Part shown: positions 3,900 to 41,701 of the stretch, piece after piece
Layout of the letters: the number at the start of each line of letters is the position of its first letter
Position numbering within the stretch: the stretch's first letter is position 1
NCBI GenBank assembly: GCA_020057345.1
Contig: JAGVGA010000019.1
Coordinates: 1 to 41,701, forward strand
Source of the DNA: Candidatus Omnitrophota bacterium
GTDB lineage: Bacteria; Omnitrophota; Gorgyraeia; Velamenicoccales; Velamenicoccaceae
Direction: 5' to 3'
Length of the DNA: 41,701 nt
Notes under the pieces: model-generated
What the model was told of the DNA's origin: nothing
The model's input: only the letters and a program-made list of their open reading frames with translations
The model's database searches: none
Made by a program: the position numbers and the translations under genes

Positions 3900-3901
3900 G
3901 A

Positions 3902-5473: not shown

Positions 5474-5477
5474 GGGA

Positions 5478-6725: not shown

Positions 6726-6769
6726 CAGAACAAAAAATTATAATCAAATACTGGGGTGCTAAGGGCCAG

Positions 6770-6814
6770 CTTGGTTTTTCCTAGCCCCTAGCACCTAGAA
6801 CCTAAAACCTGTTT
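6770..6814. repeat. Degenerate 7-bp tandem repeat (CCTAGCC-type) plus shared 14-mer
   Basis: Plus-strand units run CCTAGCC, CCTAGCA, CCTAGAA, CCTAAAA, CCTGTTT (6780-6814), each 7 bp and drifting stepwise. The 14-mer CTTGGTTTTTCCTA at 6770-6783 recurs exactly at 12520-12533, where it leads into another heptamer series. The repeat fills most of the 91-nt spacer between the tandem-domain gene and the GH-A gene. Confidence 0.75.
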
Positions 6815-6816
6815 TT

Positions 6817-7959: not shown

Positions 7960-7987
7960 ACCGCACCTCCTTGATTTGCCTTCTGAA

Positions 7988-10393: not shown

Positions 10394-10403
10394 TTCTTCA
10401 CCA

Positions 10404-10438
10404 ATTGTTAATTGTTCATTCTTCATTTTTCATTCCTA
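10404..10438. repeat. Five degenerate 7-bp tandem units (ATTNNTN)
   Basis: Plus-strand units are ATTGTTA, ATTGTTC, ATTCTTC, ATTTTTC, ATTCCTA with no gaps. The last unit overlaps the permease stop codon (10436-10438), and the series covers the longer alternative start of the next gene. Confidence 0.75.
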
Positions 10439-11377: not shown

Positions 11378-11390
11378 CGGGTGCCTCTCT

Positions 11391-12461: not shown

Positions 12462-12464
12462 TGT

Positions 12465-12557
12465 ATCCGTTTATCGTTAATCGTTGATAGTTAAAACTTT
12501 TTTGGACCTTATTCCAATCCTTGGTTTTTCCTATACCCTATAAACTATTTACTATTG
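12465..12557. repeat. Two series of degenerate 7-bp tandem repeats in one spacer
   Basis: Series 1 on the plus strand: ATCCGTT, TATCGTT, AATCGTT, GATAGTT, AAAACTT (12465-12499). Series 2: CCTATAC, CCTATAA, ACTATTT, ACTATTG (12530-12557), led by the 14-mer at 12520-12533 shared with 6770-6783. Together they occupy most of the 111-nt gap between the binding-protein gene and the first permease. Confidence 0.75.
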
Positions 12558-12572
12558 ACCCCCCTTAACTCG

Positions 12573-13886: not shown

Positions 13887-13913
13887 GAAAATATCCCTCC
13901 GTTTATTTTTAAG

Positions 13914-16361
13914 CTATCCCATCACCACGCGGACCTTGTGCGTCTTGCCGTCGCCGATAGGCTTGACCAGATTGCCGTCTTGAAGCCGGCCGTCCACGTA
14001 AACTTCCCTGACCCCTTTTTCAACGCCGTTGGGGTTTTCGATATCTATCTCAAAAACATCGCCCCTGAAAGGGCGGCGCACCGAACACTTCTTCCACTTC
14101 GAAGGGATACACGGATCGATGCGCAGGCCTTCGTAATCCCGGCGCGCGCCCAGTACCCATTCAGTCCCAGCCATAAAAGCCCAACCCGAGGCCCCGGTGA
14201 TCCAGGTGAACTGACCTTCGCCGTAGCGGTAAGGATTTTCCGGGCCGACGAGATATTCGGCGTATACATAGGGCTCGGATTTATAGAGATCATAATTCTT
14301 CTGTTTGTTCGGCATGATCTTTGTCATCGCCTCATACGCCTTGTTGCCGCGACCGACCATGCAGTAAGCCATGACCAGGAAATGCGCGGCATGACAAAAG
14401 ACCGCCGCATTCTCCTTCGTGCCTTCGGAAAACATGCTGATACGGCCAAGCTCCGGGCGAAACTTAGTGAACGCCGGATAGAACATGGCGATGCCATGGG
14501 TGCCGTCGAGATACTTATCGCAGGAGCGCAGCACTTTCTGCAGGCGCTCGCCTTCGGCCATACCGCCGAGGATCGCCCACGCCTGGCTCATGATAAAAAT
14601 CTTCCCCTCGTCATAGGCTTTAACGCCATACGGTACGCCGTCATCCGTGAACCCGCGCACATACCAGTCGCCATCCCAGCAGATCTCATTGACCCGCTCG
14701 GCCATAGTCTTGGCTTTATTTAAAAACTCCTGAGCCTTGTCTTTCTCAGCCATAAGCTCGGCCAACTCCGCAAAATACTTCATAGAGCGGACCAGCGCCT
14801 GCGCGAGCCAGACGCTTTCGCCCTTATGCCTTTTCCCGGCGGCGTCGATCGCGTCGTTCCAATCCGCGTGGCCTATTTTCGGCAGGCCGCGCTCGCCCAC
14901 ATCGTTAAAACAAAAATTCAGATTCTTCTCCAAATGCTCAAAAAGCGTGCCTTCGCCGTCCTGAGACGGCCCCCCTTTGTACAAAGGGTCCGTTTCCCAA
15001 CCGCCGAGCCACTTGTCTTTTAAATAAGGGACGTATTCCGAAAGGATGGATTTGTCGCCCGTTTCCTGGATATACGAGCGCACCGTCGAGGTCAGCCAGA
15101 TCTGATGATCTTTGTTCGGCCTGTGCGTCGCAGGACCCAAGGTATCTGACCATCCGGGCGCAGATGTTCCGTCGCGGCGGATGAGCGCGGCGATCTGGAA
15201 AATCCTTTTTTTGGTAATGTCATGATTGATGGAGCAGATCGCTTCCGAATCCTGGCACGAATCCCTGTACCCGCGGCCGCCCGAACCTTCGTGGTAAAAA
15301 GACGGAGAGCGCGACCAGAGATTGCAGATATAAACCTGGTACTTGACCCAGATGTTCATCATGGCGTCAAACTCGCTGTCCGGTGTCTTGATCGAAATAT
15401 TTCCCGTGATGCGGCCCTTCCATAACTTCTTGGTCTCATCGAGCGCCTTTTTGGCAATGGCCAAATCTCTGTACTTCTCGACGAGCTTGGCCGCATTCGC
15501 CTGGCCTTCGGTCTCGCCTAAGACCACAACGAACTCTTTGGTCTGTTTGGGCGCAAGCTTAATCACGTGCTTGAAGCAAGCGATCCCGTCCTCACCGGAA
15601 CACAGCGGAGAGTTTTTGAATGTTCCTTCTAAAATGCTTTCCGGTTTTTCTTCCGTGTTGTAGCGCCCTAAAAATTCGGCCTTTCTCGTGGCGTAACCCT
15701 TCACTTCCAGGCTCGTGCCGAAAAACGCGTAATTCTTAAACTCCCGGATGTTCATCCCCTGCCAGAACGCCGTCTTCCAGCCATAAATAAGGCGGTGTGT
15801 CTCGTCATACCACATCCTGTTGTAAAGGTTCATGATGTTGCGGTAACGCAGCTCCTCCTGGTAGTCTCCGACGAGCCACTCGACATACGGATAGAGCTCC
15901 AGCTTCTTCTCTTTATTCGATTCATTGGTCAAAGTAACGAGCCAAATCTCGCAGTCGTCATCCACCGGGACAAAATAGGTAATGCTGGACCCAACGGAAT
16001 TGTATTTGGAGAAAATAGTCGTGTAACCTAATCCGTGTCGGCACTCAAAAGAGTCGAGCTTGACGCGCAAAGGCTGATAGGTGAGCGACCAGACTTTAGC
16101 CTTGCCTGCGGATTTGCGGCTGCCTGATTTTTCCTCGCGCGCATAGATGTAGCGGCCGGGCCGGTCAAGGTTTTTATAATCAGGCGCCCATCTCAAGATC
16201 CTGTCTGTGCGGCAATCCCTGAAAAAACTATAGCCGCCGGCACACTGAGAGATGACGGCGCAGTATTTTTCGTTAGTCAGGTAATTGATCCAGGGAGTCG
16301 GCGTAACCGGGTCCGTCACGATAAACTCTAATCCGTCAGATGAAAAATATCCGTACTTCAT
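13914..16361 (-). CDS. GH94 phosphorylase (cellobiose/chitobiose/cellodextrin phosphorylase family)
   Basis: The 815-residue length matches cellobiose and chitobiose phosphorylases. The N-terminal beta-sandwich starts MKYGYFSSDGLEFIV and contains GGYSFFRDCRTDRILRW, the typical GH94 opening. The (alpha/alpha)6 barrel has GGRGYRDSCQD, GHADWNDAID (about residues 497-506, with the DWND motif holding the general-acid region), and later FSEGTKENAAVFCHAAHF and WITGASGWAFMAGTEWVLG. GH94 enzymes use phosphate to split beta-glucosidic disaccharides or oligosaccharides into a sugar 1-phosphate and the remainder. There is no signal peptide, so it acts on sugar imported by the adjacent ABC system. It is the first gene of the operon. 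The substrate (beta-1,4, beta-1,3 or beta-1,2 gluco-oligosaccharide) cannot be decided from sequence alone. Confidence 0.93.
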   Translation of the reverse strand: MKYGYFSSDGLEFIVTDPVTPTPWINYLTNEKYCAVISQCAGGYSFFRDCRTDRILRWAPDYKNLDRPGRYIYAREEKSGSRKSAGKAKVWSLTYQPLRVKLDSFECRHGLGYTTIFSKYNSVGSSITYFVPVDDDCEIWLVTLTNESNKEKKLELYPYVEWLVGDYQEELRYRNIMNLYNRMWYDETHRLIYGWKTAFWQGMNIREFKNYAFFGTSLEVKGYATRKAEFLGRYNTEEKPESILEGTFKNSPLCSGEDGIACFKHVIKLAPKQTKEFVVVLGETEGQANAAKLVEKYRDLAIAKKALDETKKLWKGRITGNISIKTPDSEFDAMMNIWVKYQVYICNLWSRSPSFYHEGSGGRGYRDSCQDSEAICSINHDITKKRIFQIAALIRRDGTSAPGWSDTLGPATHRPNKDHQIWLTSTVRSYIQETGDKSILSEYVPYLKDKWLGGWETDPLYKGGPSQDGEGTLFEHLEKNLNFCFNDVGERGLPKIGHADWNDAIDAAGKRHKGESVWLAQALVRSMKYFAELAELMAEKDKAQEFLNKAKTMAERVNEICWDGDWYVRGFTDDGVPYGVKAYDEGKIFIMSQAWAILGGMAEGERLQKVLRSCDKYLDGTHGIAMFYPAFTKFRPELGRISMFSEGTKENAAVFCHAAHFLVMAYCMVGRGNKAYEAMTKIMPNKQKNYDLYKSEPYVYAEYLVGPENPYRYGEGQFTWITGASGWAFMAGTEWVLGARRDYEGLRIDPCIPSKWKKCSVRRPFRGDVFEIDIENPNGVEKGVREVYVDGRLQDGNLVKPIGDGKTHKVRVVMG

Positions 16362-17305: not shown

Positions 17306-17971
17306 TTATATCCCACTTGTTGTTTTCGGTACAACACCAAAACCCCCTGTTTCAACAGCCGGCTGAGCCAGGACAGGGCCCGGGCTGACCAAGGGGCTAA
17401 AGGCGGATTGTAAAGCCGCCAATATCTCGTCGCTCTGGTCCGACGGCGAATAGGCCGTGCCGCCCTGACCGCGCGAACGCGTGTAGTTCAGCGCGGCGAC
17501 AGAAACGCCGTTCTGCCTCAGTCCATCGACGATCCTTCCGGAAACAGCGCTGATCCCGCGCTCCGACGGCCGATGGCGGTAATGATCTTGGCACAAAGAA
17601 ACGGACAAATAATCAAAATCGATGGAAATAATTGCCGGCCCTGTCTTCCTTCTGATCAAAGCCGGATCGTAAACAACCCTGAGATTATCGATATCGCGCA
17701 ATGTCCTCACCCAGTCGTTGTACCACTTGAACTGCGGGTCGGTGGCTGACCACACCGGCCGTACGAGCGTGATCGGGCCGATCAGGCCTCTCTTGTGCGC
17801 AACGGTGATCCAGTTCCCTTCGTGGATCTCGGCTTCAGGTGTATCCCACGCCTCGGCGTCGTTATGAAAATCAAACACGATAAGCGGCAGGCCCTTAACA
17901 ATCGTTTTGTCGGTAAGCAATAGCTGAAGCCAGCTGATCATCTCCTGGTGATTTTCCGCAACAGAGATTGC
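17306..17971 (-). other. Giant protein, C-terminal segment: UPF0489-like domain
   Basis: After the SSPC delimiter, about 220 residues contain PLIVFDFHNDAEAW near the start and IISIDFDYLSVS near the end. This pairing (D-x-H-x-D, then xDxDYxS) is that of the UPF0489/C5orf22 family, which has an arginase/deacetylase-like metal fold. The function of that family is not established. The extreme C-terminus (SPLVSPGPVLAQPAVETGG) is a Pro/Ser-rich tail. The stop TAA is 22 nt before the PilZ-like gene. Confidence 0.5.
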
Positions 17972-20900
17972 GCACGGCGAACTGGCGCCAGGTTTGGCCA
18001 TCTTCTTGACAATTATGGCTAAGGCCTTGTTCTCTTGGACATCCCCTGATGCCATCAGCTTCCTGGCCTCGGAGGGCAGGCGCCAGGTCCAATTCTTTCT
18101 ATTTTTTGTCCCAGGCACGTTGTAGCGGTGTTCCGGCCCGGATAAACCGAATACCGTCTGGATACTCACGCACATGAGCAGATTGCCCGACCTCAGCATG
18201 ACATTCAAAAGCGAATCCAAGTCCTTGAGTGAAGCCTCGTCATCCCCTTGACCATACATACGGAATAAATCCTGTGTTTGCTTCCTGTCACCCGGCGATA
18301 ATTCTTCCACGCGATCAACAAAAGTCGCAGGTGTATCGTGGGTCTCTGATGTGATCAACATGTGAGGCAGTTGCGATGCCTCTGCCTCTCTCCAGCCTAT
18401 GACGTTATAAAGATAAAGATTGGGAAGCTCTTGAGCGAGGCGGTCCAGCATCGCGCGCACTTCTACGGGCCTTATGCCCAGATCTTCTCCGATCAACAAC
18501 ATCCCGGATTTGTATGCTTCTTGCGCAAGGGCCGTAATTATCCCCTCACCCAACTTTGCCATGGCATCAGCATCCGCGGGTTCAAACTTTCCTTTTGTCG
18601 CCGGCTGATCCCAGGGAATGACCCATTCACCGCAAAATCCCAACAGGTGATCGACGCGCATGCCGTCAAAGTACTTGGCTGCATGCCGTATACGGCTCAG
18701 CCAAAATGTCAGCACTTCTTCATATTTATCGCCCCATCCGTAAGGCAGGGAGCTCCAATTTTGGCCCTCCTTGCTGAACTGATCCGGCGGCGCGCCGTTG
18801 GTTTTATCAAATTCAAACAGTTCCTGATGGCTCCACACATCAGCGCTGTTGATGGCAGGATACATCGGCAGATCGCCCAACAAAAACACTCCTTTGGCAC
18901 GGGCAGTGGCGCGGATATCAAGGCGCTGCACATGGCTTAACCACTGAAGATATTTAAAGGATGCTATCTCCTCACTCAGTTGCTCGGCATACTTTCTTAG
19001 CGCTTCAGGGTCCCTCCGGCTTATCTCTTGCGGCCAATGCCTCCAGTCCTCTGTGTTGAAATAATCCAACAAGGCGTGGAACAACGCGTAATCATCCAGC
19101 CACCACGCCTCCTTTTCTGTGAATTGAGCCAATTCTTCGGATGCCTCAGGAACATTGCTCCGATCAAGATAGCGCAAGGCATTTTGAGCAAAAAGACTGA
19201 TACTCAAGTAGGGGCACGGATCCCTATATGTTTGTGTTAAGGGCAGGTCCATCCAAAAAGTAGCGCCGAGAATATCTTTGATAAAACTTATGAACGGTTT
19301 TGCCGCTGTGTTATCTCCGAGCGCGGCAAGAGGAGCGAGCACGCCAAAATGCTTTGATTCCCACCAATTTCCTTTAGCCTCCTCAACAGGTGAGCTGGAC
19401 GCCCGGGGCGGGTGTTTCTCTTTCAGCTGTCGCGTGAAATCCTCAACGAGCGCATCGATATCCTGGCTTCCGAACATCCCCTGGACGCGGGCCGCCTGCT
19501 CTCTGAGCGACTCCTGGACCTTCGCCTTAAAAAGAAGGTTCGTGACGTCGATGACCTTGGCATTGATCTCCTCTAAGCCCCATAGCCTGTGATAGAGCAG
19601 CCGATGGTTGCCGGCAAGGCAATAGTCCATGCCTGCGACCCTGATAACAACAATGGGATTGACGATCAAAAAGTTCTTCTTGTCTTTGTTCAGAAAATGC
19701 AGCACGCGGTCACAAGTGATGCCCGGCTGGGTCACGCGGATATCGCTTACCCGCAGGCGCATCTCTTTTAAACGATAAAGATACTCAAGGTCACCGGCCT
19801 GAAAATAGGGATAGGCGTATGCCTTCATCAAGCCCTGAATATCCAGACGCATGCCCTCCGTATCGAACCAATCCTGCTTGCGCTTTTCAATTTCTCTTGA
19901 GGCGAACCTGAATACCCGGCTGTCCACTTTCACGACGAGGCTGTTGTCCGCGTCTTTAGAAACGCTCACCACCGGCGAGCTGGAGCGATCAGTCATCTCA
20001 AGAGCGGCCGCATTTGGTTCAAACTCAAGGCCTGTAAATAATACATCCGCCAAAAATGTTTCCCCGTTAGACCTCAGGAAGGTAACCGTAATTTCATTGA
20101 TCCCCGCCAATGCCGGCGTGGCGAGAAGCGGGATCCGGATCTCATTTTCTTGGCCGTGCGTGTCCTTGAAACTGACAAATGCCTCATTGGAAATGAACCC
20201 AACTCCGACGGGACTAGCTTCTTTTCTATTAAAACCAACGACGGCTTTCTTGATCGGCTGATGAGACCGGTAGCGAATCCTCAGTGTCCCGTTGGACAAG
20301 TTCACGCGTTGCGCCTGAGGAATTGTCACGATGATTCCACCAGGGCCGATATTACCTGCTTTCAAATGATATGTGCCATCATTAGATTTCAAAAGATCAG
20401 CCTTTTCACCTGGTTGATAGAATGATTCTATATCTCTACTTAATCCCTTGGAGCCAAGATACCGCATCATGTCCTGAGGCCCTTTCCCAACAAAACCTAA
20501 AATGAGAGATAACGTATGCGCGGACGTCTGGAATCTAATAGCCTCTTTTTGGGCAATATTGTAGCCCTCCCAGGGCCCATGTTCCGTCAACAGGGTTTTT
20601 ATGACCGGCCAGTTTGCCTCCAAAAACCTCTCTGTCTCCCCGGGCGCAACCATATAAGCAAGGCCGAGAGCATAAAGAGACGCAACATTTGTAATTCGAG
20701 GATCTGTGGCTACGGCAATCTCAGGGATGCCGACTTTACCCGTATACTGTATTCCTTCACCGGTATAGCACTCTGAGAGAATATCGGGAAGGCGGTGACG
20801 AGAAGCATAATCAAGCTCAATCTCCACAAAATTTTTAAGGATTAACCTCCAGCCCGGATTATATAACTCCGGCATATACAAAGCCGGCCAAAGCATCTGA

Positions 20901-23900
20901 AACGCTGATCCATCGTAAGGCGCCACCGTCGAAACATCTCTTCCGTCTATCGGATACGATTTTATCTTGAAGGCCAAATTTTTAATGGCGCTCTGAGGCA
21001 ACCTATAGCGCACAACCACGAATATCGCAGGGCCGCGAAATTCATTCCCTAAATAATCACTATGCGCCACATGCCATTGCCCTTGATCAGGCCAACCCAA
21101 CCATTTTTCTGTCGTCCAATTATAACCAAACCTAAACATTCCTGCCGAGTCATCATACAAAAATCTGTAACCTTCGCTCTGTTTCTCAAGAAAGGCTTCC
21201 ATTTTTTCCGTGAGTTCTTTTATTTTACGGCTATCTTCAATTTTCGGCAAAAGCGCCCCAATAGCGACGCCCAAGGATGCGGAAAGATTCGCGTTATCCC
21301 CAAACACCACAAGGACGTGTCGCTCATCAAGAATTTTCATGATGGCAGCTTTGTCGCCCTCATACGGCTTCAAGGCCCCTCCAAAATCCTCTCCATAGCC
21401 CTTTATTCTATTAATTCCGGCTTCCTGACTAATACTCTGCGCCGTAATCCAGCCCTTGGTTATCAAAGCCTGCCAGATTGATTCTCCCTTCTTTTTACCA
21501 AAACCGCCATATTGCTCCTCTTTTGTCAACTTCAGCTTTTGCGCCTCTGAACCCAATGGACCCTTTCTTTCGCCGTTTTCCAAGCCCATAAAATTCACCA
21601 ACAATCCTTTATGGCTGAGTTCCGGGTTACCCTGGTCCTGACGCAGACTATTGATCACAACGATCAGTTTCTCCAAGGCCTGTTCTCCGGTCATATAGGG
21701 ATTATCCACATAGCCGGCAACGATGTTGGCCAAAACCTGCACCTCGAACCCTATAGCTGTCAGCTGGGTATAGGTTCTAAAATCCAGCCCCTTGTCTGGC
21801 TCGCGGTTCCAGCCTTCGACAAAATAGCCGGATATAGGCTCTGCCATATTGTTTCCCGGGGCTAGATATCTCATCGCGTTATCCAGTAACGCGCGCGCAT
21901 ATTTATGAGTTGGTGACAGGCTGGCCTGCGTTCTTCCCACCGGCGAGCTGGACGCGCCTTTTCCCCGGTCGCCCGGTCCTTGTCCGCCTGTCAGCCCCTG
22001 TTTCTCAAGCTCGGGGGTATAGAATCTGGACACCTCTCTTTTAAACACGCCCTTGGCCCTGGATAGAATCTTTCCCTCGAGCGACTCGACAAAATCAACG
22101 CTCTCCGCCAGATATCTCTTGATCTTTTTAATGTCTGATTTGTAGCGCGGCGTCTGGAGATTGTGAAGCCTGTCGGCGATCTTGATGACCCTGACATAGC
22201 TTTTTTTGCATCCTGCGATGCGGAGAAGAAAATCCTTATCCTCTTCGCCTTCTTTTTTCGTCAATACGCCGACGCCGTCGAATATCGCTTTGATCACGAC
22301 ATCGCTGATCCCTGTCTTGGCGAACTCTTTGCGCATGATATCAAGGATGTCTCCCGGCCCTTCGTAATCTTCAACCGTATCGTGGAGAAGGGCGATCGCC
22401 AGCAGGATCGCATCGGCATAGTGTGCCAGGTTCTCTCTGTCCGCCTTGATATTAAATCTGCGAAGGACCCTGAATTGTTCGATCAAAATAGAAGCAACCG
22501 ACAACAAGTGTATGAGATAGGGCTCACCGTTGGCTCTCTGCTGATCTCCATGAACGCGCTTGGCGAGCATCCAGGCGACATCGACGATCTGCCAATGCTT
22601 TTCCAGCTTTTTGTCCCCTATAATCGCAATCTCTTTTAGGCGCCTGAACTCCCTTTCCAGCCACTCTTCGTCGATCTTCGACGCATCTTTTTTGTAAACC
22701 AGCGCGTTCGCTTTCAAGAGCTTCTCCCCAAAGAATGCGCTTGCAGGGAGAGCCTTCCCGATCCGGTCGATGATCCTGGAGGCGTCAAACCACTTTTCTG
22801 CAGTCGTTAATATGGCGCCGCCTTCGCGCGTATTATTGACGATGTTGCCGGAAATGATGTTGGTCCTCAACGGGCCCGTTTCTTTTTCGCGCAATTCCAC
22901 CTTGTATTCGTTAAAATTATAGAGGACGAAATGAAAATGCGGCTCACTGTCCTTTATCCTGAATTTGACCAAAGAGACATGTTTTGTCGCTATCCTTTCC
23001 CGTATATATTTTTTGACGCGCAGCCGTCCGTCAGCGGTGAATTCGAAATATTTCTTGATCCTCATCTTATCGTTTTGGCCAAGCGTCCGGTCATTCCTCA
23101 CAAACCACTCGAGACCGTAAAATCCTCTCTTACCCTGCAAAAGCGCAAGCAGATTGACGTGCGTAACTAAGATCTCAATCTTCCCTGGGCTCACGCCCGC
23201 CTCCATAAACAGGATAAGCGCCTGGAATGCCTCGAAAAACTTTGCCCCATCTTTATAAAAAGAAACTCCTCCGGCGCTGTGGCCCCTGACCGTTGTGCGC
23301 AAAGAGACATCCTTGAGCATGGGAATGATCCTTTGTTTCAGATGCGCATAGACCCCCTGCCCTTCGTCAAAGAAATACGGATATTGCTCCTGCAGCGGAG
23401 CGATCTCCGAGAACATGACAGGCCACATCCTCAACTTAAACCAACTGGAAAATCTTTTGCTCTTGAGCGAATCGACGAGGGAGGCGATCTCCATCATCAA
23501 GCCATGGTGCGAAGCGCTGTCTATCTGTTCATCAAACAAAATATCCAAAAGCGCGCTCAACAGGCGAGCGTCGATGATCTTCTTAAGCCGGTCCAGCGTC
23601 TCGCGCGCCTCCTCGACGCTGTTATTTCGCAAGCTCATCCGGAGTTTTTCAAAAACCTCCTGCTGTTGATCGTTGCCTATGGGCGAACTCGAAGAGCGCC
23701 TGAAACGGTCCCTGGTCCTTTTGATCTCTCTGACCTGTTCCACAGGGGCATTGCTCAGCGCAATGATAACATCGAACCTTTCGCCTCTGAGCTGGCCTAT
23801 TTTACGGTCTATCAATCCTTCTGTTTCGGAATGCTTCAAAACAAAATTCCAAGGAAGAAATCTTTTCCGGCGCTTAGCCTCCTCCTGCATAGTCAGGCGT

Positions 23901-26900
23901 ATCGTATCTTTGGAAAAAAGAAATTCCTTGAGCCTGGGCAAGGGGAGTTTTATCGTTAAGCTATTTCTCCCGTTGAGCCCTGCACGGGAAATAAACTGCG
24001 GCCTGTCTTGCCGGGCCTGAATAAATATTTTTATAGCCTCAGCCATGTAACCGCCGTCGGCTTCTCCGAAATAAACGATATTCCTTATGCCGGAGAATTC
24101 CGGATAATCGACCAGCACCTCTAAGTGCGGCTCGCTTTCTCTAAGATTGATCCCTATGACCTGCTGATAAAGCCTGGCCAGGGTTAAGTGGAATTTAAAC
24201 TCGAAAACCGTATTATCGCTGATCGCATCAAATTGCTTGACGACTTCCCCATCGCCGTCATAAACTTTCCGATTGATCGACCGCAGGCGGCCCAGGTTGA
24301 TCTGCCTTAAGATCACGTCTCTTTCAACGATCACCTCGTGAAGGCCGGATATTTCTCCGGCCAGACCCAGGACGACGTGATGGTTTCTCCTGCCCTTTTG
24401 GAGCGCGCGCGCCATTTCTAATACGGCGCGGTGAACAAAGGAGTGAACTTGATCGCTGCCTTCCCGATCGTATAGGAACAAACCATCGACTTTCGCCAGG
24501 AACCTCTTGGATGAAAAATCCCTGTTTTCAAACCCGCTGTCAATCGCCCTTAAGGCCTTGGCGACCTCGCGATCGTTGATTGGTGAACTGGATGCGCCTT
24601 CATTTTCCAGGCGGTATGTCCCGAATCCCAGCTCGCGCAGATCCGCGAATGCCAGGCGCATCAGCGTCACGCCGCGGCCGATCTCCGGAGAGCTCTCGGC
24701 CTTTTTTGCAAGGCGCGCGGTCAGGCCTTCCACCGTATTCCACGGCCCCAGAGGATTACCAGCCCTCCTTAACCCAAATCTGTTATAGATCATCATGTAA
24801 GGCATGGAGGATTTCCCGTTCTTGAAAGTAGGATGGAACTTCGGATTCACGCCAAGCAGTTCAGAAAATTCGTGCCGGCGCGCGTATTCAACAGCGGAGA
24901 CCAATAGCGCTTCAGACGGCATAAGCCCTACTTTTGCAAAAAAATCGGCAACCTCGCCGTTAGTCGCGCCGCGCACACCGCCAAGCCTGTGATTACGTAA
25001 TGTGCTCGCCTGGCCATCTACGCCGATCCTGAAAAATACGCCGCTCAAAGGATTGGCGGACATCCTTTGTTCGCCCAACAGGATCTCAACCCCAAACGTG
25101 CTCTCTCCCAAACCAAACCGCAGGCCCAAAAAGTAAGGCGTCTCATTGATACAGCTTCTTAAGAAAGTGCGATTTGCCATAAAATCATTCGAGTAAGAAC
25201 GGATCACTCTATCCGCGTATCCGGTCATCCAGTCAATCTTACTGTCGTCTGCTGAATCTTGCGGAACCAAATAAGCGAACTTTTGCTTTAAGTGCGGGTG
25301 AGTTCGGTAAGAAACGATATAGAATTTTAAAAATCTGTCCAAGGCCTCCGGCGACAACTGAGACATCCGCACATATTTATTAAGCCAATCGAACATAAAC
25401 CTCACGGCCTGACTATCAAGCCCCCAGACAGTTGATAGTAAAATGGTCCAGTAATGAATATGCCTCTTGCCTTCGTATCTGCCGCCTCTCTGATAAGAAA
25501 AAATCAGAAAAGTGAATATCTTGTGCATGAGCGCCGGCTCAAGCAGACGGCCAGGATCTTTTGTCTGAGCCCAATGACCGATCTTTTCCCGGTCTGCAGC
25601 AGAAAAAATCGACTCTTCTAAGCTGCCAAGCACTTGCCCGATCATGGCATCAACAGGAGACGAAACCTGAGCGCCTTCTGAAACATAAGCCGCCTTGAGC
25701 AGCTGCGCCTTGTCTTCTTCGCTCAAGTTGTGTCCGACAGCCAATACCTCCAAAAGCACATCCGTCTCGCCGCGGACCAGAGAAAAATAATTCTTGCGGC
25801 CTTGGAACCTGAAGTGCTCGATCAAAAGCGGGATGCCCAATATCCTTTTTTCTTCCGGAGAAAACGCCGACCAGCCCAACTCATGCGTTTGCAGCTTCTT
25901 TATTTTTGAGACGGAATATTTCTTACTGCTCTTTAGCGGCTTGAATTCTCGGGCTTCTTTGATACCGACGAGTTCGACAACCGCTTCAAAAGCCGGATTC
26001 GGAATGCGCTCGGACTTCTTTTCCGGATTGTCGATATTCAAAGAAATAAAAGCCGCTTGATACAATCTCGTTCCCCAGAGGCTCGCCTCGGCAGACGTCT
26101 TCTCGATCTTCTGCGATCTTAAAAAATTGTCAAAAGCCCGGGCAAAAAGCTCTTCTTCGGATAATTGCGAAGAACAAAGGTAAGCGGCGATGCATAAATT
26201 CCTGAAATCCTCCATAAAAACCGCCAAGGTCAATGCATCCAGGACCTTCTCCCTGGCCTCTTCCAGGACATTGCGCGCTGATTCGCTGTTCCCGTCTTTG
26301 ATCAGCTTGCCGCTAAATCCTAAAAGGCCTTTTAAGGACTTGAATTCAGGCTCGCGGAAACAGATCGTCAACTTCTCGGCACGCAGAAAACCCTGGACCT
26401 TACCGTACGCGGCCCGGAGGTCCTTCTTATCCAGCGCCTGCAAGATCTTATCCAGTCGCCCCAGCATCTCCCGGTTGCGCGCAAAAGTGATCTCGCGCAT
26501 CTGGCTCATTCGTCCTTCCCGGATCTTCTCGATGATGCGGCGCACCGCCTGGCCGCGGATCGTGACAAATCGCAAAGCCACGCCCAGAATGCTGCGGCTG
26601 GCGCGGAACTCTCCGCGGCTATTCAAGGCCATGGCGAGATCCAGAGAAAGCCGGATGATATCCTTGATGCCGAGAACAGCCCGGTCCAGCTTTTCGCGGA
26701 TCTGCGCCAATTCAGCCTGCATCCGGCTGACTTCTTCGGCGAGGATCTCCGGCTGATCACCGGACGACGCTGTCTTCGCGATCGCCTCATCCATATTTTT
26801 ATTGATATCGCTTAAAGTCTTATAAACAGACCTCAGCCAATTAAGTTCGCGGCCTTCGGTCCTGATCTGGTCGTCCATGGAACGGAACGCCTCCCAGAAA

Positions 26901-29900
26901 AGATCGTGATGCACGGGCTTATAAACACGGTAAACGACCGATGCGCCTTCGCTGAGCGCATAGCGGACATTCAACCCCCTGACCACCCACAGCCGCTGCG
27001 TCTTGGCATCAAAACCAACGCGCTGCTGCGGACTCTCCCCGCGGCGCATCATGAGGCGGGCGAGATCCTCCGCAGCCGCATTCAGAGCTCCGATGCCGGC
27101 GGCGATCTTCTCCTCTTCCCTGGAAGCCTCTATCAATTTCAAATTCAGGCGGCACGTCCCTTCAAAAAAGTATTGGGCCCTGGGCTCATCCTTGGAAAAT
27201 ATTTCATTATTTTGTATAGGCGATGAGCCGGCCTCTTCGGCATCTTCCTCGTCGGAAGGTTCTTTTGATTTTGACTTTCTGGGAGGTTTATCGAATTCGT
27301 TTCTAAGCTCGGTGCCGATATCGCTGAGTCTTCTTGAGCCCTGAGGAACCTGCGGAACATATAGGACAATGCCCTGTTGGGAAAAATATTTGTTCGCTCT
27401 CGCTAAAAGCAAGCCGTAAATGCGCGCCAGCGAATCCCTCTCGGCGGCGAGAAGATAGTACCTTGCGGAAAATTCTTCGGGCAGGAAAACTGCCGCGCCG
27501 AAGGGCCGGCCTGAAACAAAAAGCGAATCCAATGTTGTATTGACGTCTCCGACATATTTTTTCTCCCGCTTCTCGAGATTTCTCGCAGAATTTCTGAAAG
27601 CGATGATCTCTTCTATCAAGGCCTTGAATTCCGGGCTAACCTTCGAGGCTTCTTTCGCCGCAGACTTGGCGTGGCCGATCTTCAACGTCTCTAAAGTCCT
27701 GACGATCTGATGTGTCATCGGTTTTCCGGCCACAGCCGCATCCGCAGAAGCCGACGAGACGGATAATAGAGCAGCGACGGCCATATTAGCCCAGAACATT
27801 TTACCCGGGTTGACTACCGGCGAGCTGGAGCTTTCTTCTAAAGAGGCCGAAGGAGACGAAGCCTGCCTCTCGTATATCAATATCGCCGGATAATGGACGG
27901 AATGAGCCAGGCTGGCGATCTTGCTGTCTGCCGCTGCCTCTACTGTCAGGAAGGCCTTGGCATCTACCACATAGGGATAGGATGCCCTGGCCTCCCCCTT
28001 AATGCGATTGAACTTCTCCGTAACGAACCTGTCGAGGGCCCCGGAATGAGCCTTCACGGATTCTTTTGCCGCTTCTGTTTCCACCTCGATGATAAGATCG
28101 ATGTCCGAGCCGGGCGTGAAATCACCGCTGCTCATGCCGCCATTGATCCAGGCCTTCCTGATCCCGTGACCGAAGGACATGGAGGCGAGCATCTTGACAA
28201 TGCCTTCCGCAACGATCCAGCGCAGGTGATAGTGCGCGCGAAGGTCGTCTTGCCTGAACATCCTGACCAGGGACTCCTCTCCAGAAATCCCCAGCCGCGC
28301 GACCGTCTTTGTCACGGCTGCCTTCCATTCCGCCTCAACGCCTGCCACCGGCGAAGAAGAGCTGAATTGCTTGTTGATCTTCAATTTATCGTTCTCAGCG
28401 TCAAAATAAGACAACAGCAGTCTGCCGACCCAGCTATCTTTAAAATCATACCCCTTGGGAAGATGCCCGCTTAAAACCGTATCCTGCGCAAGAACGACGA
28501 CTTTGCCTGCGGGAGACACTGTCTCCGCTTTCTGCCCCAATATTCTTTCGACCGCGTTTTTATAGAGAGCGCCTTTATGGATAGCGTTACGGATAAAATC
28601 GCTGACAGCGTGACTGCGCTCTGCGGGCGCGGCGACCTTATCAAAAGCGTAGATCCCGCCCGGAGATCCGTTGACTTCGATCACATAGGGCAGCACGTCT
28701 TCGCCCAGAATGATGTCTATGCCCAAATGGTCGTCCTCAAAATAAGGAGATACATTCCCTAGCGGTGTTTCGACAAAAGAAGGCGGGAATTTTTTCGTAT
28801 AATCCTCGACAGCGTGATGCGCCTTCACAGCCTCTTCTTCTATCCGCCGGATGATTTCTTTTATCCTGGCCCCATATCCAAGGTCTTGCAAAACGACTTT
28901 TAATTGATCCGGCTCTGCGTCGATGCTCAGATTGACCGCACCCGAGCCTATGCGAACGACATGGCCTGAGACCTTTATTTCGCCTTGCGGCACCCTGGAC
29001 GTAAATACGCGCACATTCCAATCAAGCTCTTTGCCCGCCCTCACGAGCTTTCTGTGAAGGATGAACTTCTGGACGATGACATCAACGCTATCCATGAGCG
29101 CATTCAATAGGCCGTTTGCCTGTAGATCATCTCCCGGAGAAACAAACATGATGCCCCTTCCGGAAATACCGAAACGGGGCTTGACGACGGTCTTGCCCGC
29201 TATGTCAAAAAATGTCCGCAGCTGATCAAGGGAGGTCTCTTCTTGCCGCGATATAAAGAGGCTGTTGGGTATCCTAACCCCCGCATCTTTTAAAATCTCG
29301 TCGACAACCATCTTGTCGCGGATGATCGGCAATAAGTTATTCAAAGTAGGGATCTTTAAAGAGCGCAGGTTCTGGGCTGACCAAACGCCCGGGCCGCCGA
29401 CGTAATGCAGGATGATCGGCTCTTTGAAACCGGCCAGGACGAACCTGCCGTCGTCATCTAAGTAGAAGGCTGCTCTTGCGGTCACCACCTTAATTCCGTA
29501 AGGCAGTTCCATTATCTGCGCCCAGTCAGGGTGTACGAGAAATAGCTTTCCGCCTTTATATTTCTGGGCTCCGGCGAGGATAGACATGCGGTTGTCCGTG
29601 CGTATCCCCTTGCTGATAAGCGCAAGATGCACGCCCTTGGGCGCATCCACAGGGCCCTCGGGGATAAACGGCAGAGGAAAATCGTAGGATAATAGATTTA
29701 AAATGATGCGCAGACGGAAACCCTCGGTCGCTTCGTTTGTCATAAAGGAAAACATCGCCTGATCAGGATTCATGACTTGGTCAATAATGCCCTTGACGGT
29801 CTTTTCCGTCTCTTTATTCCAATCAGCCAACGCGCCTCTTATCTTTTCTTTTCCCGCATCGGATAGATCTGCCGCCTCCAAGATCAAGAGCAACTTTTCC

Positions 29901-32900
29901 ATGATCGTGTCGGAGAAAGACAGCAAGGAGCGCATCTTCTTCCATAGTTTGGCGTCTTTTCTGTCTAAGCTCGCGATCAACGCCCGAATTGCCCCCATCC
30001 TCCGCGAAGTCTCTATTTCCAAAACCAGAAAAAGGTCTTCCCCGACGTCTTTAAAAAGCCCTTCCTTTCCGGAGACACGGACGATGTTATGCAGAATGAC
30101 CTCCGGATACAAAGAAAAATCAACCGCATTGGCAAGGAAGTTTATTGACGAACCCTCTATCGGCGAGCTGACGGATGGGGCCGCATTCTTTAAGGCCCTG
30201 TGAACAGCTTTTTGCAGTCCTTCGGGCAGGTCGGTAAGGCGCTCTTTATCCATACCTTTTCTTACCGCAACAGCAAAATTCTTGACGGCTTCCTCAGTAT
30301 TCCCCAATAATCCATAAGCGACGCCCATGCCGAAATAGCTTTGGACAAAGTCCGGCTCAAGTGCTATGGCCTGCAGGAAATACCCGATGGCATCCACAGG
30401 CCTGTCCAATTGCAGGAAAATACTTCCCGTGTTATTAAGGGCCAAATGCGAAGCCGGATCTACAGCTGCGGCTTTATTTAAATATTCAAGCGCCTTGTCC
30501 ATATCGCCCATATCGTGATGGATGCTGCTCAAATTGATAAACGCCTCGGCATAATCACCGTCGAGTTTCGCGGCTTGAGAATAATATCTCACGGCTTTGT
30601 CCAGATCCCCCCTGGAAAGATAAGCGGTGGCGAAATTGAAGAGGACAGTGGCTAACAAAGCCTGATAATGACCGAAGTGAAAATACCGATACAGCTCTCT
30701 GACCTTCGGCTGAAAGGCCCGGCATTTAAGACTGAAGAAATCATCCTGCTTTTCTTTTCTTAAGTGCCAATAAGAACCAGAGCGGACGAAATACTCCCGC
30801 AAAGAAAATGCGGAGGTTATGCCGGGAGAAGAAAGCTCGATCACTATGACTATCTCCTGCTTCTGGGACCCGAGCGTGACATGGTCCTTAGCCAATAGGA
30901 CATCCGCCTCGACCCCGAGCATCCGAAGAAGCAGATAACCGACGAGGCTTTCTAAGACACAGCCTTCGCCGATGAAAAGATGAAGCTGCTCCACATCTTT
31001 ACCGCGGATATGACGCGGGTCCTGGCGAACCCTTTGAGCTAAATTAGCGAAATCTTCATCCAAGGGCGGAATAAGCATAGAGCCCATCTTGAGAAAATCT
31101 TCTTCTTTCCTGAGCGTCGCCTTACGCACCGGCTCCTCCAATACTTCAGCGACTTTTTCTAAATAAACAAAAGGATGCTGACCGGGTACGTTTCTGACAT
31201 CTTCCAGGCGGTGCCTGAGGGCTTGCGCATCAATGCCTCTGGCCCGGACAAAAGAACCAAAGCTTTCTTCAATGTACGGGATGCTCCCTTGAGGATAATA
31301 GCCGCCGAGCACATCGCAGAAACCCGCAGGCAGAGCGTCGCCAATCGGCGAGCTGGAAAGACGAACAGCCTGGCCCTTACCCTCTGTCCATAAATCATAG
31401 GCGAGCTTGAAGCGCTCGTGCCAACGCTTGGCCGCAGTTTGCCTGAGCTCCAGGGCTTCAACGAGGAGCTTCTCTTTTTCCGCGCCCTCTCCTGCAGCGG
31501 CAAGGGCTTCTTTTTCATCCGCGGCCTGGTCCAGATTCACCGCATCGCGATCCATGGCAAAGTTGCGGCCGATGGTGCCGGCGATCCGGACGTTTCCTAA
31601 ACCCGCCGCCTTAATCTTTTCCTCAAGCTGCCTGATATAAAAAATACCGTTCTGAGTCGGGATGCGCGTCATCACGTCGCGGCCGTCAAGAATAGGCCAG
31701 AGATTGACCCGGACATTTTCCGGCAAGCCGAGGCGTTTCGCCATCTCGATCAACCCCAGGAAGTAGCGGTTATCCGCATGGATGCCGCCTTCGGAACAAA
31801 GCCCCATCACGTGAATGTTGCGGCCTTCCTGAACCGCGCGCTGGAACACTGCGCGCAAAATTGAATTATCAAAAAATCTTCCATCCCCTATCTGATCGAT
31901 AATCTGCTTATAAAGCGTTTCGATGATCATGCCGACGCCGATGGTGCGGTGGCCGTTATCCGAATCTCCCATCTGGTAATCAGGCAAACCGACCGCATCG
32001 CCATGCGCTTTTAAAGTCGTGAAAGGATATCTTGCGATAAGGTCCAGATACACCGGCGGCTGCGCAAGTTCGATCCCGTTCCATGCCTTGGCCTCGGGGT
32101 TATTAAACGGATTGATACCCCACCCGTCGCGGATCAAGAGGACCACCGGGCCTTGAATATCTTGCGGGACGTAATCTGCAAGCAAGCTCTCAGCCATCTC
32201 TACGGGCTTCGGCACACCTAAGATATCAAGGAGCGTCGGCGCGATATTGGAAAGCCCCATGCCTTTTTTGAGCCGCACCGCCTCTTTTTCCCCTAAACCG
32301 GCGATGACAAAAGGCACGGGATTGGTCGTGTGCTGGTCAAACGGGATAACGCCGTACTTGTCTGTCAAAGGCATTCCTTTATCATCAAGGACCACGACCT
32401 GCTCGATGTTGCCGTGGTCCGCAGTCTCGATGTAGACGCCGCCCTGAGCCAGGACCGCGTCCTTGATCCTGCCGGCGGCTTCGTCTCCGGCGAGGACCGC
32501 CAGGCGCGCGCGCTCCTGGTCGACCTTGATATTGTGGCCCTGGATGTCTACGGCCAAATTGACGACGATGAGCTTCTTCCGGCTGCGCGCTCTTATCTCC
32601 CCTAAGAACGCGAGCACGTTGTCCGCGATTTCTTTTGACTTCATCTCCGGCTTTTTGTCTTTGTCCGCCACGCCTTCGGACGGAACGATCGAAAGCTTGA
32701 TGCCACGGCCGGTGTAATCCAGTTTTCTCTGGCCGGCGAAGAAATAGCTGATATGTTTGCCTTTGTCCGATTCGCCGAAATACCCCTGGATCACGCCCGC
32801 GCTCTCTAAAACCTCGATCACGCTCATGTAGGATGGCAGGCTGAACTTAGACTCGAAAACCGCCCGGATGCCGCGGCTTTCAAAATATTTTTTGTCATAT

Positions 32901-35900
32901 GGGACAAAGGGAACATAGATAAGGCCGAGGTCTTTAACGTCGAACCTATTGCCGCTCTGGTTGAATTGTGAGTCGGTGAAAGCCATCATCGCGCCGAAAG
33001 AGCGGTCCGCGCGGTGATTGACCCAGATGACGATATCCCCCTGTTTTAACGTAGCGACGGGCCTGCTCATCCCCCTGATCCGGTAATTATAATAATCCGC
33101 ATTGTTTTTATGGGCGCCCAGGAAATCCACCTTTATGCCAGGCTTAACCCTCTTGGCTTCGAGATTTGAGAAAAAGTCCTGCATCGCGCCGTTGTCTCTG
33201 TGCACCATGGCTAAGACCCTGTTTACGCCGCGATAGTCTAAATGCCTTAACGAAAGACGCATGATCTCTGTGGCCAGGCCCAAGCGCCTGGATTCCTTCA
33301 GGACAGCCATATAGTCGATCTCGCTGTGGTCAAAAAAACAATATCCGAGCATACGCCGGGCGGCCTCTGCAAAAACCAGATATCTATCCCGGCCTTCGCT
33401 TGAAAAGAAGTGGTATCTGAGTACAGCGTCATAAGCCTCGTGCCAGTTGCCTTCCGGGCCTTGAACACTGCGGTTGATCCCGGCGACCGCCTCATAGAAA
33501 ATCTTCCTTTGCCTCTCGCTCTTTAAGGAACCCAGATGAACGATATCCACATCAACGCCGGCCAAGGGCGAACTGGTCGAATTATTTTCTTCGATATTAT
33601 TGGCGGGCTTTTGCGTCAAAAGATCGCGGTACACCGTTATGAGCGCGTTCTCGCCGGAATCGATATCACCCTCCCTGCCTCCTTTGATCACGCGGATGAT
33701 CCTGGCGCCGTTTTTGACATGCATGTTCGCAGCGGTGCAGGCAAGACTGCGCTTGGTGATCCTCACATACTCCTCAACAGGGAAGTTGGAGTGCTCGATG
33801 AACTGAGTGTAATCGCTCCAGGTCAATTGAGCCGGATTGACTTCGCGAGAAGCCAAAAATTCCCTGAATGTCATCTTGGGGCCTACCTTATAATCGAGGT
33901 AATTGATATCATCGGCCCCCTGCTTGACAGGCCTGAAGGTCGTAAGTAAATAAGCCTCAGGCGTCAAAATATCCTTGAACTGGCCGTAACCGTTCATGGG
34001 CGAATAGGTTCCCCGGGTCATCCCCTCGATTAAAGGCGTGGTGGAAATAAGCAAGGCGGTGGAGATCTTGGGGCCGAAACCTTTGAGACGGTAATCTTTC
34101 CTGACAGCAACGGCATAATGCAGCCAGACATTATCTTTCGCCCGGTTGCGCATCGTCTGCATGATCTTTAAAAGAGAGCCGGGGATCTCTTCGATGGACC
34201 CAGCAAACAAAGACACACACCAGAGCGAGGCGATGATCGCGGACGCTTCATTCCTTGCGACGAGATGGCCGCCCTTGTTATTGGCCAACATCTCCCCGGC
34301 CTGCGGCAAAGTTATGTCAAAATTACCTTGCCACGCTTCATTGTGGATAGGAACGATCGTCTCCAGCTCGGGTTCTTCTAAAGGCGCGATCCTAATCGTC
34401 AAAGCCTCTTCCTTGCTGTCCAGCGCCACTTCTTTGTCGATCACAGGCAAAGATCCAGAGGCATCATCGATGGGTGAGCTGGAGCCGGTTTCGCGGGATC
34501 CTTTGGAAGCCGCGCGTGCCGCAGGGAACATAGGCTTGATAAACGCTTCGCCTTCCGATTTTTCTGAGCGCTCCACCATGGCAAGAAAGCCTTCAACGTC
34601 AAAATAATGAATATTACCGAGATACCGGCGGCCGATCTTCTCCCATAAGAACCTGCGGATCTCTTGAAGCCTTTCCTGAGAATCGATGAACAAAAACGAT
34701 TTGCCCTTTGCCAGATATTTATGCAGCTTCATCTCGTCAAATTCCGTGGAGCGAATCCTGAAAAACTCCAGCTTTGCGGCTTTGGGCTTTCTCAAATTCT
34801 GATTTTGGTACAGCAGGACTTCTTCGGCGACCCTATAGAGATTTTCTTTCAAAATCCTTAACCCTGTCCCGTTGAGGCCTTTTTCCTGGCTCGATGAATA
34901 AAAAAGGCTCAAGCGGACTTTGTGGGCGATATTCCTGAGCTTCCTGAAATTCTTAAAACTGTGCTCCATGCCTGTAAGCGCCCACATGCTGTAACCAAAT
35001 CCTATAAAGAGAGGCAGTATGGTAAGAGGCCTCGGAATCCTGGCAAAAGACACATCCGGATAACGGCGGCTATAAACAAAAGCCACGGCGATGCGGCTGA
35101 TCCCTGTCATGTGAATGACTAAAACACCCACTACGGCGCCAAGCACAGGGTACCCCGCCAACCCGCCGACAAGGAAAGGCACAAGGCCGGCGTATTTGGC
35201 CATGCCAAATGCAGTCTCGATAAAGATAGAGATCTTTTTCACTTCGCCGTAGGCGTGCTGCTGTCGTTCCGGGAGTCTTTTTAACTGAAAATCGATAAAT
35301 TTAAAAAGGCTTTCTTTCTGCGGAACGCCGTTATTTTCAACAGGCGAAGAAGCTATCTCATCGGACAGAACAGACCCGAGCTCTTCACGGCCAAAAACCC
35401 TCAAAGCCTCTTTTCCTGCGTCAAGGCCTTGTCCCTGATTGATAGAGGCGTTTTCAGCGACATATTTAATGACCCTGCCGAGCTTCCTGGAACCCAACTT
35501 TTTTAAACTCTTGATGATCAAGGCGCGGCTCGCCTCATCGATGCGCCAAGGTAAAGCGCTTTCCTTCACCGCGCGGTAAGCCACAATCAGATTGTAGATA
35601 AGCTCGTAATTCCCAAGAAGGCCATTGTCCACAGCGAGCCTCAGGACATGATTTTTAATGTCTTCCTCGGATCGTCTGTCAATCGCATAAAATTCAAAGC
35701 CCTCTCTTGTCAAAACAACAAGATTCCATTTGAGGAAAATATTGGGCCTCAGATCAGAGAGCGCATTTTCTGCATCTGCTTCCGGATGCTTGGCAGCGCG
35801 GTTAACCATGCCGTAAAGCGACACGGTTGATTCCGGATTCACATAAAGAGTCTTTTCAACGCCGTTTTCAAGGATAGGTATCGTCATCCAGAATTCCGCA

Positions 35901-38900
35901 GGATTGCCGTTGGAGGCCGCATAGATATTGACCTCATAATAGAACTGGCCGCATCTGGGAAGGCCCAAAAAGAGATAGACGATGTCTGACCCGCCAATAT
36001 AGATCCTCTTGTATTCTTGTTTTTTGGATTTTAGCTCGGCGGACAAGCGCTCGTAGACCTCTTTGTAGAAAGGAACACACGGAACACCCGCTGCCTCGGC
36101 ATCCTGCCAGCGGATTATCTTGAGCGGCTCGCGGTAAAGGCCGACATACCGCGCTACCACCAGCTGCAGCGAAGGCCGCAACGACGTAAACCGCTCCCGT
36201 TCCAAGAGCCGAGAGACCGGAGACGACGAAGCGCCGTAATTCCACGATTTTTTTACGGCCTCAATGACCATAGGGACGGCTTGAGAAAAATTAAAGTTCA
36301 TAACCGCTGCGGCCAGGTCCTTTTCAGATGCTACGCGGCCTCCAAATTCCTGAATAAACATCTCATAACCGTCCAAGAGGATCTCAGAGACCTCAATATC
36401 GCTCAGCCCGTTTACAAAACCGGCGAGCACGATCACATGCAGCCACTCGCTGAGCACCTTACCTATATCATGGTCAAGATGCTGGGGCCGCACAGGCGTC
36501 AGATGTTCAAGATCAAGGATATTGCCGCTTAAGCGGATCGCGGACAAGAGCGACGTATGCACATAGCCGCCTTTCAAGAAACGCGCCAGGGTCAAGATGC
36601 TGAAAAGGCCGGATTTTCTGATCTTCAGGTAAGTTATTGCAGGAGATTTCTCATGCAGATAAGCAAAATCTTCCTTTAAGGCAATGAAGGCGATGGCCCA
36701 TTTCTCTTGGGAAAGCTTGATATCGGCGGATAAACCGGGCAGATCGCCTTCGAACACATAAGCCTCGCCCGGCCTGACAGACTGCAAAAGAAGCGGGCCG
36801 TTAGGCTGTATTTTCAAAGCCTCAGTCATGAGCCGGGCTTCTAACTCTAAGTCTTCCTTGGTCTGGCCCTCTGCGGCAAATTTGACGGCGATGACTTTAT
36901 TCTGATCCAGCTCGATCACGGCGATGCGGCCGAACCATCGGACTTCGCGGCCATGAAAATCAGATAAAGGATAATGCAGCTTCACCGGCGAGCTGGAGGC
37001 CTCTTTAACGCTAGTCGCAACCTCTTCACTTTTCTTCGTTGACCAGATACGCACGATCTTCTGCGTGCCGGAAACAGGCACCAGGCCGCGGACAAACGAA
37101 CCGACGATCTCCTCGGCGGCGCCGGACTTCACCTCAGCCTCGACTCGGTCGATCTGAAGGAACGCTTTATCTTGTGAGCGTATCTCGAAATCTCTGGCAA
37201 AAAATGCCACCAGTGAATGCCCACGCCCCGAAGTCTTCTGCGTATGATCGACGGCATCGCCGTTCTGAACATCCTCGGTTTGGCCTAAAGCAAAAAACTT
37301 CTCGATGTCATAGCCGGATCCGTTATCGAGAGCGATCGCCTCAAATACAAGGCCGGCCTTCTCGTCCTTAACGCGCCTGAGGAGAAAGATCCCAAGGCCC
37401 TTGCTGACGTGCTTGCGGATATCGCCGATGAGCTCTGTTAAGCTCAGCTCCACCTTGAATATGTCCTCTTCGTCAAAGTCGTTCTTAAAGCCGAATCTCT
37501 GCGCAAAGAAGATATTGCCCTCTTCGTCCGAACCCATGAAATCAATGAGCGCGCCTTCGGCGTTCTTAACGCCCCACTCTTCTTTGAGATCTTCAGAAGC
37601 CTCCCTGCCGAAAACAGGGAAAACAAAGAATCCATATTCCTTCTCAAGGATCTTTTGGGCCTCAACGAACTGCTTCCTGTCAAGGCGCCTTAAAGCCTCC
37701 CAAAGAAGCTCGACATGCAACTTGGCCGCCAATTCCCGGACGACCTCAGCGGTCTTTCCGCGATAGGTGGGCTTCAGGATATTTAAGTAAGCCAGCGCCT
37801 CCTGCGCCGAGATCTTGCTTCTCCTGAATTCCTCAACAATCTCCCGGACGATCTCATTAGCTTCTTTGAAGCTGATGTCTTGTGTTATGCCGTAGAGACC
37901 ATCAAGCAATGCTCGAATGAAGATGCGTTGCTGATGCCTTAAGGGTTCTACCGGCGAAGAGGCCTGACCGGGCCTGGGCACAGACTTAAGCAATTTGACA
38001 TCCGCATCGACGACGTTCTCAAGTCCGCGGAATTTTGACTCGAGGGCCGCGTTCGTGAACGGCTCCGTGTCCTTCGTGTCTTCGATCTGGAACCTGAGCA
38101 CAATCAACCCAGCTTCATTCTCCTGTTCCATCTTCTCGATATTCAAGCTGTACTGATGCAGGATATGGGTGACCTCATACCAGAGCCCTTCCCTGTCGAG
38201 GGCGCGAATCACGACCGCCCGCCTGATCCTTGTCGTCAAATAATTAGACAATTCCGAAGGTTCGATAAGACCTGCACCTAAGGCCGCATAGAGCTCGTAG
38301 ATATCCTCAAGATGTTTGGAAGATATAAAATAAATAAGCTTCTTATTGAATAATTCCGTCTTTTCGGCCTTTGCCAGCGGAGCAACGATCTCCCTCCCCT
38401 TTTTCTCCAATGCGCTCATCGCATTCTCACGCAGCTCCCTGATAAGAAGCTTGGCGCGGAGCGTTTTTGCGCTCCTTTCGATTTCGTGGCTCGGGTTGAA
38501 GGCGGCGCCCTTGGCTCTCAAGGCCACTGTGGCGAGCGTCTGCAGATTCGCCGTTTCGCTCAGAGGCTGTTTGGCCATAACAGCCTCTAATCCAACATAA
38601 ACAGAATTAAGACGATTGACCTCGAAGTATGCGGCGAGATCCGCCGGAACAGAGCCAGCAGGAAGCCGAACAACCTGAAGATCCGCCTGTCTAACGGCTT
38701 TTTGTGATACAACTGACCATATCTTCTCTCTTAAAGTTCCGCGGCCGTAGCCTAAATAAATAACAAAGATATCGCCGGCAATAAGGTCATAAAGAAGCCT
38801 GAAATTCTCGGTGAAGTCCGATGAAAAAACGATATTATCCGCGATAAAGTTCTGGCGCACATACGCATCCGGCATCAAAGATTTTATATCCACGGTGAAG

Positions 38901-41701: not shown

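Follow-up and report, generated by a model that had tools for sequence, protein, structure and literature searches.

A giant modular open reading frame of an Omnitrophota genome, delimited by a short Ser-Ser-Pro tag, as a putative exported polyprotein

Giant frames of the Omnitrophota and the frame in the window

Giant open reading frames (ORFs) are already known from the Omnitrophota, where their function has been described as obscure: frames of over 20 kb are reported for the Velamenicoccia, and the giant of Candidatus Velamenicoccus archaeovorus LiM comprises 39,678 aa, with few domains annotated and a delimiter unmentioned in the accessible parts of the source (PMC10066038). A bioRxiv preprint on giant genes is cited in the accessible part of PMC12057145. 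A literature search for Omnitrophota together with polyprotein returned no paper, and the delimiter described below may have been noticed earlier. The giant studied here shares with the viral polyproteins of picorna-, poty- and nidovirus type a single frame over several to many functional units and a conserved, short, lineage-specific border tag; unlike them, it is bacterial, probably exported and made up of accessory enzymes, and its processing is putative. With the MARTX toxins it has in common a very long, apparently exported bacterial chain with several unrelated effector-like domains, but it has far more modules, and the MARTX hallmarks (an inositol-phosphate-dependent cysteine protease domain and RTX repeats) gave no Pfam match in its 8131 aa. 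Repeated Ig-like, cadherin or similar domains likewise gave no Pfam match in this chain and no internal repeats were present, in keeping with an earlier note on this DNA, according to which the chain is unlike the usual repeat-built adhesin.

The window (the whole stretch of 41,701 nucleotides that was analysed) originates from contig 10 of a 770 kb genome that is 78% complete. Its positions 17306–41701 on the minus strand form a single open frame of 8131 codons plus stop, as claimed in the earlier note (more than 8100 uninterrupted codons), with one local reservation. The 5' end is open because the contig ends there, and the gene is just the C-terminal portion of a longer giant ORF, the 24.4 kb present on this contig already exceeding the 20 kb of the described giants. 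The frame thus belongs to the giant ORFs of Omnitrophota/Velamenicoccia as far as these are characterised in the accessible parts of PMC10066038. Among the contigs inspected in this genome, SSP[VI]-rich frames were present on contig 10 only, and the remainder of the giant was not found. The codon-position composition is uniform from approximately aa 153 onward, while aa 67–152 (~41246–41504) have a codon-position GC of 0.47/0.62/0.53 vs ~0.55/0.37/0.60 otherwise, together with a protein-like +2 frame, which suggests two compensating frameshifts near the contig end, probably present there either in reality or as a sequencing error; the safe claim for this assembly is therefore an uninterrupted run of ~7980 codons that begins at aa 153 and ends with the stop. 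The features of the chain and of its 3' neighbour, all on the minus strand, are as follows.

17306–41701, minus: giant modular ORF, C-terminal 8131 codons, 5' end past the contig
41246–41509, minus: aa 65–152, probable compensated frameshifts, reading uncertain (abnormal codon-position GC, protein-like +2 frame)
37961–41245, minus: aa 153–1247, cytidylate-kinase-like (307–409) and SpoT/RelA HD plus synthetase-like (579–851) domain matches
36995–37960, minus: aa 1248–1569, histidine-kinase-type ATPase, weak (E=0.003)
36227–36994, minus: aa 1570–1825, SidJ-related pseudokinase-like (NF033874, E=1.5e-8, below cut-off)
35351–36226, minus: aa 1826–2117, family not found in Pfam search
34481–35350, minus: aa 2118–2407, membrane-segment module, homologous to the G001 giant (39%), both beginning at SSP
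33575–34480, minus: aa 2408–2709, no Pfam match at threshold, GNAT-like by eye
31355–33574, minus: aa 2710–3449, GNAT acetyltransferase (55% to the G004 giant), then circularly permuted iPGM
30170–31354, minus: aa 3450–3844, TPR module (domain match)
28358–30169, minus: aa 3845–4448, ATP-grasp (domain matches)
27827–28357, minus: aa 4449–4625, nucleotidyltransferase-like (PF01909, E=7e-4, just below cut-off)
27227–27826, minus: aa 4626–4825, Sec-signal-peptide-like start 14 aa past SSP (sequence features), family not found
25664–27226, minus: aa 4826–5346, family not found in Pfam search
23690–25663, minus: aa 5347–5704 and aa 5705–6004, two segments, family not found in Pfam search
21950–23689, minus: aa 6005–6584, SpoT-type HD domain (domain matches)
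19982–21949, minus: aa 6585–7240, family not found in Pfam search
19397–19981, minus: aa 7241–7435, family not found in Pfam search
17309–19396, minus: aa 7436–8131, GH77 4-alpha-glucanotransferase (extra, divergent copy) and C-terminus (domain matches)
13914–16361, minus: GH94-type gene directly 3' of the giant, synteny anchor (80–84% identity in seven family members)

The GH94 gene is part of a co-oriented sugar locus 3' of the giant (501–16361), which also encodes a solute-binding protein, two permeases, glycoside-hydrolase-like proteins and a ROK regulator. In the family genomes G001, G002, G003, G004, G006 and G007 this gene adjoins giant SSP-rich frames, of which those of the first four are cut (14,473, 3581, 19,367 and 23,032 codons, respectively); in G005 the contig ends just past the GH94 gene and a 15,564-codon SSP-rich frame is found on another contig. 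G006, a one-contig complete genome of 1,974,201 bases, has a giant frame of 39,687 codons, which in comparison with the published 39,678 residues makes it almost certainly Ca. Velamenicoccus archaeovorus. The same downstream genes follow the giant frames in six other family genomes, and this synteny makes the giant of the window an orthologue of the V. archaeovorus giant, with 17306–41701 as its C-terminal part. Both come from the same genome family and the same locus, with GH94 and ABC-transporter genes 3', SSP tags and some homologous modules, but the chain shares little sequence with the V. archaeovorus and other family giants and uses the [SA]SSP[VI] form of the tag. A 29,111-codon giant frame is present in the sister family (G008), and the closest named homologues of one module, the permuted iPGM, are from Omnitrophota.

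An ordinary operon of separate genes, fused in this MAG by assembly error or loss of stop codons, could be suspected from the contig end, the probable local frameshifts and a free-standing homologue of one module. It is nevertheless very improbable for this frame, with its 8131 codons without a stop, and it is refuted as a general explanation by independent genomes that carry the same type of frame at this locus, one of them with the 39,687-codon frame on a single contig. Profile searches of the translation found the domain matches succeeding one another within one frame. Internal separate genes were also considered and rejected: promoter-like sites inside the frame are at chance (15 vs 15.5 expected), and the terminator-like sites, slightly over chance (31 vs 23.6 +/- 5.1 expected), are present on both strands and therefore uninformative.

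The SSP tag and its place at module borders

The tripeptide SSP is the most over-represented one of the chain, with 23 copies vs 1.35 expected and a density of 2.83 per 1000 aa vs 0.18 in sampled other ORFs of the same genome; eight neighbouring genes have zero. The 21 Ser-Ser-Pro motifs of the earlier note are thus real and, on recount, somewhat more numerous. Nineteen of the 23 are of the type SSP[VIL] (11 V, 6 I and 2 L), the remaining four being SSPG, SSPS, SSPE and SSPC, and the preceding position is mostly S or A, while V or I prevails after the Pro.

SSP-punctuated frames, for which a search of relatives had been suggested, are present in the family and in other families of the class, although the motif, initially given as SSSP[VI], recurs without being fixed and varies by lineage. 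The form [SA]SSP[VI] is found in the window and in G001, G002, G003, G005 and G008, while the genus g5 (G004, G006 and G007) has [LIV]SSPA across most copies. Outside the order, a 57,099-codon frame of G205 contains 135 SSP vs 10.9 expected and a 32,526-codon frame of G099 contains 53 vs 4.7 expected. The giant of G185 is hardly enriched (12 vs 6.6 expected), those of G048, G073, G108 and G203 are without SSP punctuation, and long stretches of the G006 giant are free of SSP, so the tag is not required for a giant. Two such stretches of G006 are aa 1–4730, with a C39-peptidase-like domain and TPRs, and aa 10342–17438, with SecA-like, lytic transglycosylase and GH2-like domains. The G205 frame opens at a contig end in a tandem repeat of EQKEVLGGKID (first 50 aa).

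The tag is placed between modules, as the earlier note had proposed. None of the 23 SSPs of the chain falls within a Pfam domain, and for the giants of the window, G004 and G008 together the count is 0/187 vs 25.0 expected (10,000 rotations gave a minimum of 10, and 0 of 10,000 reached zero). The spacing of the tag in the chain has a median of 296 aa, with 55% of the intervals at 150–350 aa vs 28% for random placement. Giants of different genera can be aligned over only a few segments. Of the 70 points at which this homology ends, 42 (60%) are no more than 25 aa away from an SSP, vs 14.7% of random points. Several homologous modules have an SSP on either side in two or three genomes, and every genome uses its own version of the tag; one homologous border reads ALSSPA in G004, NASSPI in G008 and SSSSPV in G001.

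Selection acts on the tag as a peptide. At the same position its Ser codons belong to both the AGY and TCN families, and conservation of the DNA past the tag is absent from the flanks, which together identify the peptide as the unit of selection; a DNA element as the delimiter was rejected on the same grounds. In the alignable parts of the G004 and G006 giants the identity is 75% overall and ~43–55% in the most rapidly evolving linkers, while SSPA in these linkers is identical at 79/96/62/71% for S/S/P/A; modules common to both have a dN/dS of ~0.11–0.28. These data bear on an alternative in which the tag is a scar of module acquisition, that is, a DNA-level fusion or recombination site joining neighbouring or foreign genes in frame. 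Fast module turnover between genera would fit such a scar, as would short in-frame repeats adjoining SSPs in the G003 giant and a codon excess of TCG-CCG at the G008 tags; the second Ser codon of the tag is skewed to TCG in general, much of the skew being common to other Ser-Pro pairs, with G008 in excess. The scar is, however, improbable, being already weakened by the mixed Ser codon families, the 12 different nine-mers at the 19 tag sites of the window and the unconserved flanks, and the tag is kept in old shared linkers while their surroundings change. The G003 repeats (L083–L086; e.g., aa 8271–8317 and 18345–18404) lie between close SSPs and include VIEKSQ... and TAGKASTSSP.

Module content, accessory enzyme copies and export

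Pfam domains cover 26% of the 8131-aa chain. Compared with itself, the chain had no self-similarity at 1e-5, so that the segments are unrelated to one another, as had been supposed. Domain searches also support the MalQ, iPGM, SpoT-HD, ATP-grasp and NTase segments recognised in the earlier note, the last one just below the cut-off. As for the membrane segments and the signal-peptide-like stretch named there, one strong hydrophobic segment scores in the frame, and the signal-peptide-like stretch is located 14 aa after an SSP. The segment aa 153–1247 has homologous counterparts in the giants of G001, G002, G004 and G008. Modules of other giants include PPDK pieces, glycogen-debranching, amylase, GGDEF, response regulator, kinase and radical SAM domains, as well as nitroreductase, methyltransferases, Zeta-toxin-like domains, M50 and C39 peptidases and lytic transglycosylases.

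The iPGM of the chain is circularly permuted: in the alignment, residues ~245–505 of 1EJJ come first and 4–197 second. Read by eye, this alignment retains D12, S62, H123, D153, R154, R185, R191, R261, R264, K336, D403, H407, D444, H445 and H462 of 1EJJ, its known metal- and substrate-binding residues. Structure prediction with three sequences gave no usable model of the permuted enzyme (pLDDT 48). The G008 giant has a complete iPGM of normal order exactly between two SSPs 535 aa apart, and among 11 genomes of the order iPGM is confined to the giants of the window and G008. A stand-alone ApgM-type mutase is present in 11/11 of these genomes, with two copies in 10/11 including this genome, which also has a complete ordinary malQ elsewhere, on C88. 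With malQ and the ApgM-type mutases standing as ordinary genes, the corresponding modules of the giant are extra, accessory copies; a replacement of the housekeeping enzymes by them was rejected for the same reason.

The earlier note regarded segments occurring in related genomes as ordinary separate genes without SSP as evidence against its reading. This is the case for one module: another Omnitrophota genome (L009) has a permuted-iPGM homologue (63%) as a separate 904-aa gene without SSP, which indicates that modules can stand alone and does not refute SSP-delimited chains. In L009 (JAUYBI010000064.1) genes for enolase and permuted iPGM lie near each other at 1956–4619 and 9728–12439, each starting signal-peptide-like. 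In a further Omnitrophota contig (L010, DAOWKH010000101.1, 2179–10389), PPDK, PGK, circularly permuted iPGM and enolase are joined in one chain with a signal-peptide-like N-terminus, apparently placing most of lower glycolysis in an exported protein. This chain resembles the giant in its permuted iPGM (50%) within a multi-enzyme chain, its N-terminus and its Omnitrophota origin, but it is without punctuation of the SSP[VI] type and has 2737 aa as far as seen. A search for an ATP/ADP translocase that might accompany exported glycolysis gave no match, and was uninformative since the control genomes gave none either.

Cys makes up 0.33% of the giant and 1.30% of the genome's other ORFs, low Cys being typical of exported chains, and the complete G006 giant has an N-terminal signal-peptide-like sequence. 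Taken together with the signal peptides on free-standing homologues, this indicates export, and the chain of the window is probably exported as well. The architecture of an exported, SSP-delimited chain of fast-exchanging modules is well supported.

Putative cutting at the tag and its meaning

The best hint of cutting at SSP comes from Tat-type signal sequences, which normally need a free N-terminus. Five of them are located inside the G006 and G205 giants, where the distance from the preceding SSP is 6, 6, 29, 10 and 40 aa; the SSP densities give chances of ~1%, 1%, 6%, 2% and 9% for these distances. One precedes an SLT/Tse3-like (peptidoglycan-lytic) module. Signal peptides of the Sec type show no such enrichment (4 after SSP vs 2.9 expected), so that the argument depends on the Tat signals of two genomes, and hydrophobic segments after SSP showed no enrichment.

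The earlier note had offered either a polyprotein or a chain assembled through a standard linker; this is the natural reading, in which cutting at SSP is putative. In the version proposed here, the chain consists of numerous enzyme-like modules that are unrelated to one another, turn over quickly and individually have the size of an ordinary protein; a five-residue border tag, in this giant [S/A]-S-S-P-[V/I], selected as a peptide, would be recognised in trans; a dedicated protease would cut at or near it; and single modules would be freed outside the cell or into prey, polyprotein-style. Domain searches of the 8131 aa revealed no protease module, and the M50 and C39 peptidases of the G004 and G006 giants, respectively, have no established tie to SSP. 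We give about an even chance to this reading as a whole, namely an exported modular giant chain with SSP tags recognised in trans and most likely cut to release the modules.

The chain may instead be an uncleaved giant multi-enzyme protein, with SSP as a flexible linker or a docking or modification site (e.g., for Ser glycosylation or phosphorylation) that tethers the exported modules like a covalent cellulosome or a coat. The border statistics would be identical for such a chain, most of them following already from a uniform uncleaved linker; the linkers around SSP are variable and hydrophilic, frames of 40–57 kaa are kept open, and an extracellular-coat role of the giant has been proposed, according to the accessible parts of PMC10066038. 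Against this, the five ordered positions of the tag are fixed and shift by lineage, while flexible linkers usually accept any order of small residues, and internal Tat signals just after SSP would make little sense. An uncleaved chain is therefore a serious possibility that falls clearly short of an even chance, and cutting at SSP appears more likely than an inert linker.

A delimiter conserved as a peptide provides a way to split giant frames into modules for annotation, and it makes the question of why proteins of 40,000 residues exist testable in the form of whether the chain is cut at SSP. To our knowledge, bacterial polyproteins on such a scale are not known. It is conceivable, although we rate it slightly below an even chance, that a class of the Omnitrophota possesses true polyproteins, tens of thousands of residues long, with dozens of exported enzymes and effectors, which would be cut apart at the lineage-specific SSP tag by a co-evolving protease for use on prey cells and would include metabolic enzymes acting on prey metabolites. 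If cutting at SSP is true, these giants would represent a bacterial polyprotein system whose protease would have a new specificity, in a group that counts a predator among its members.
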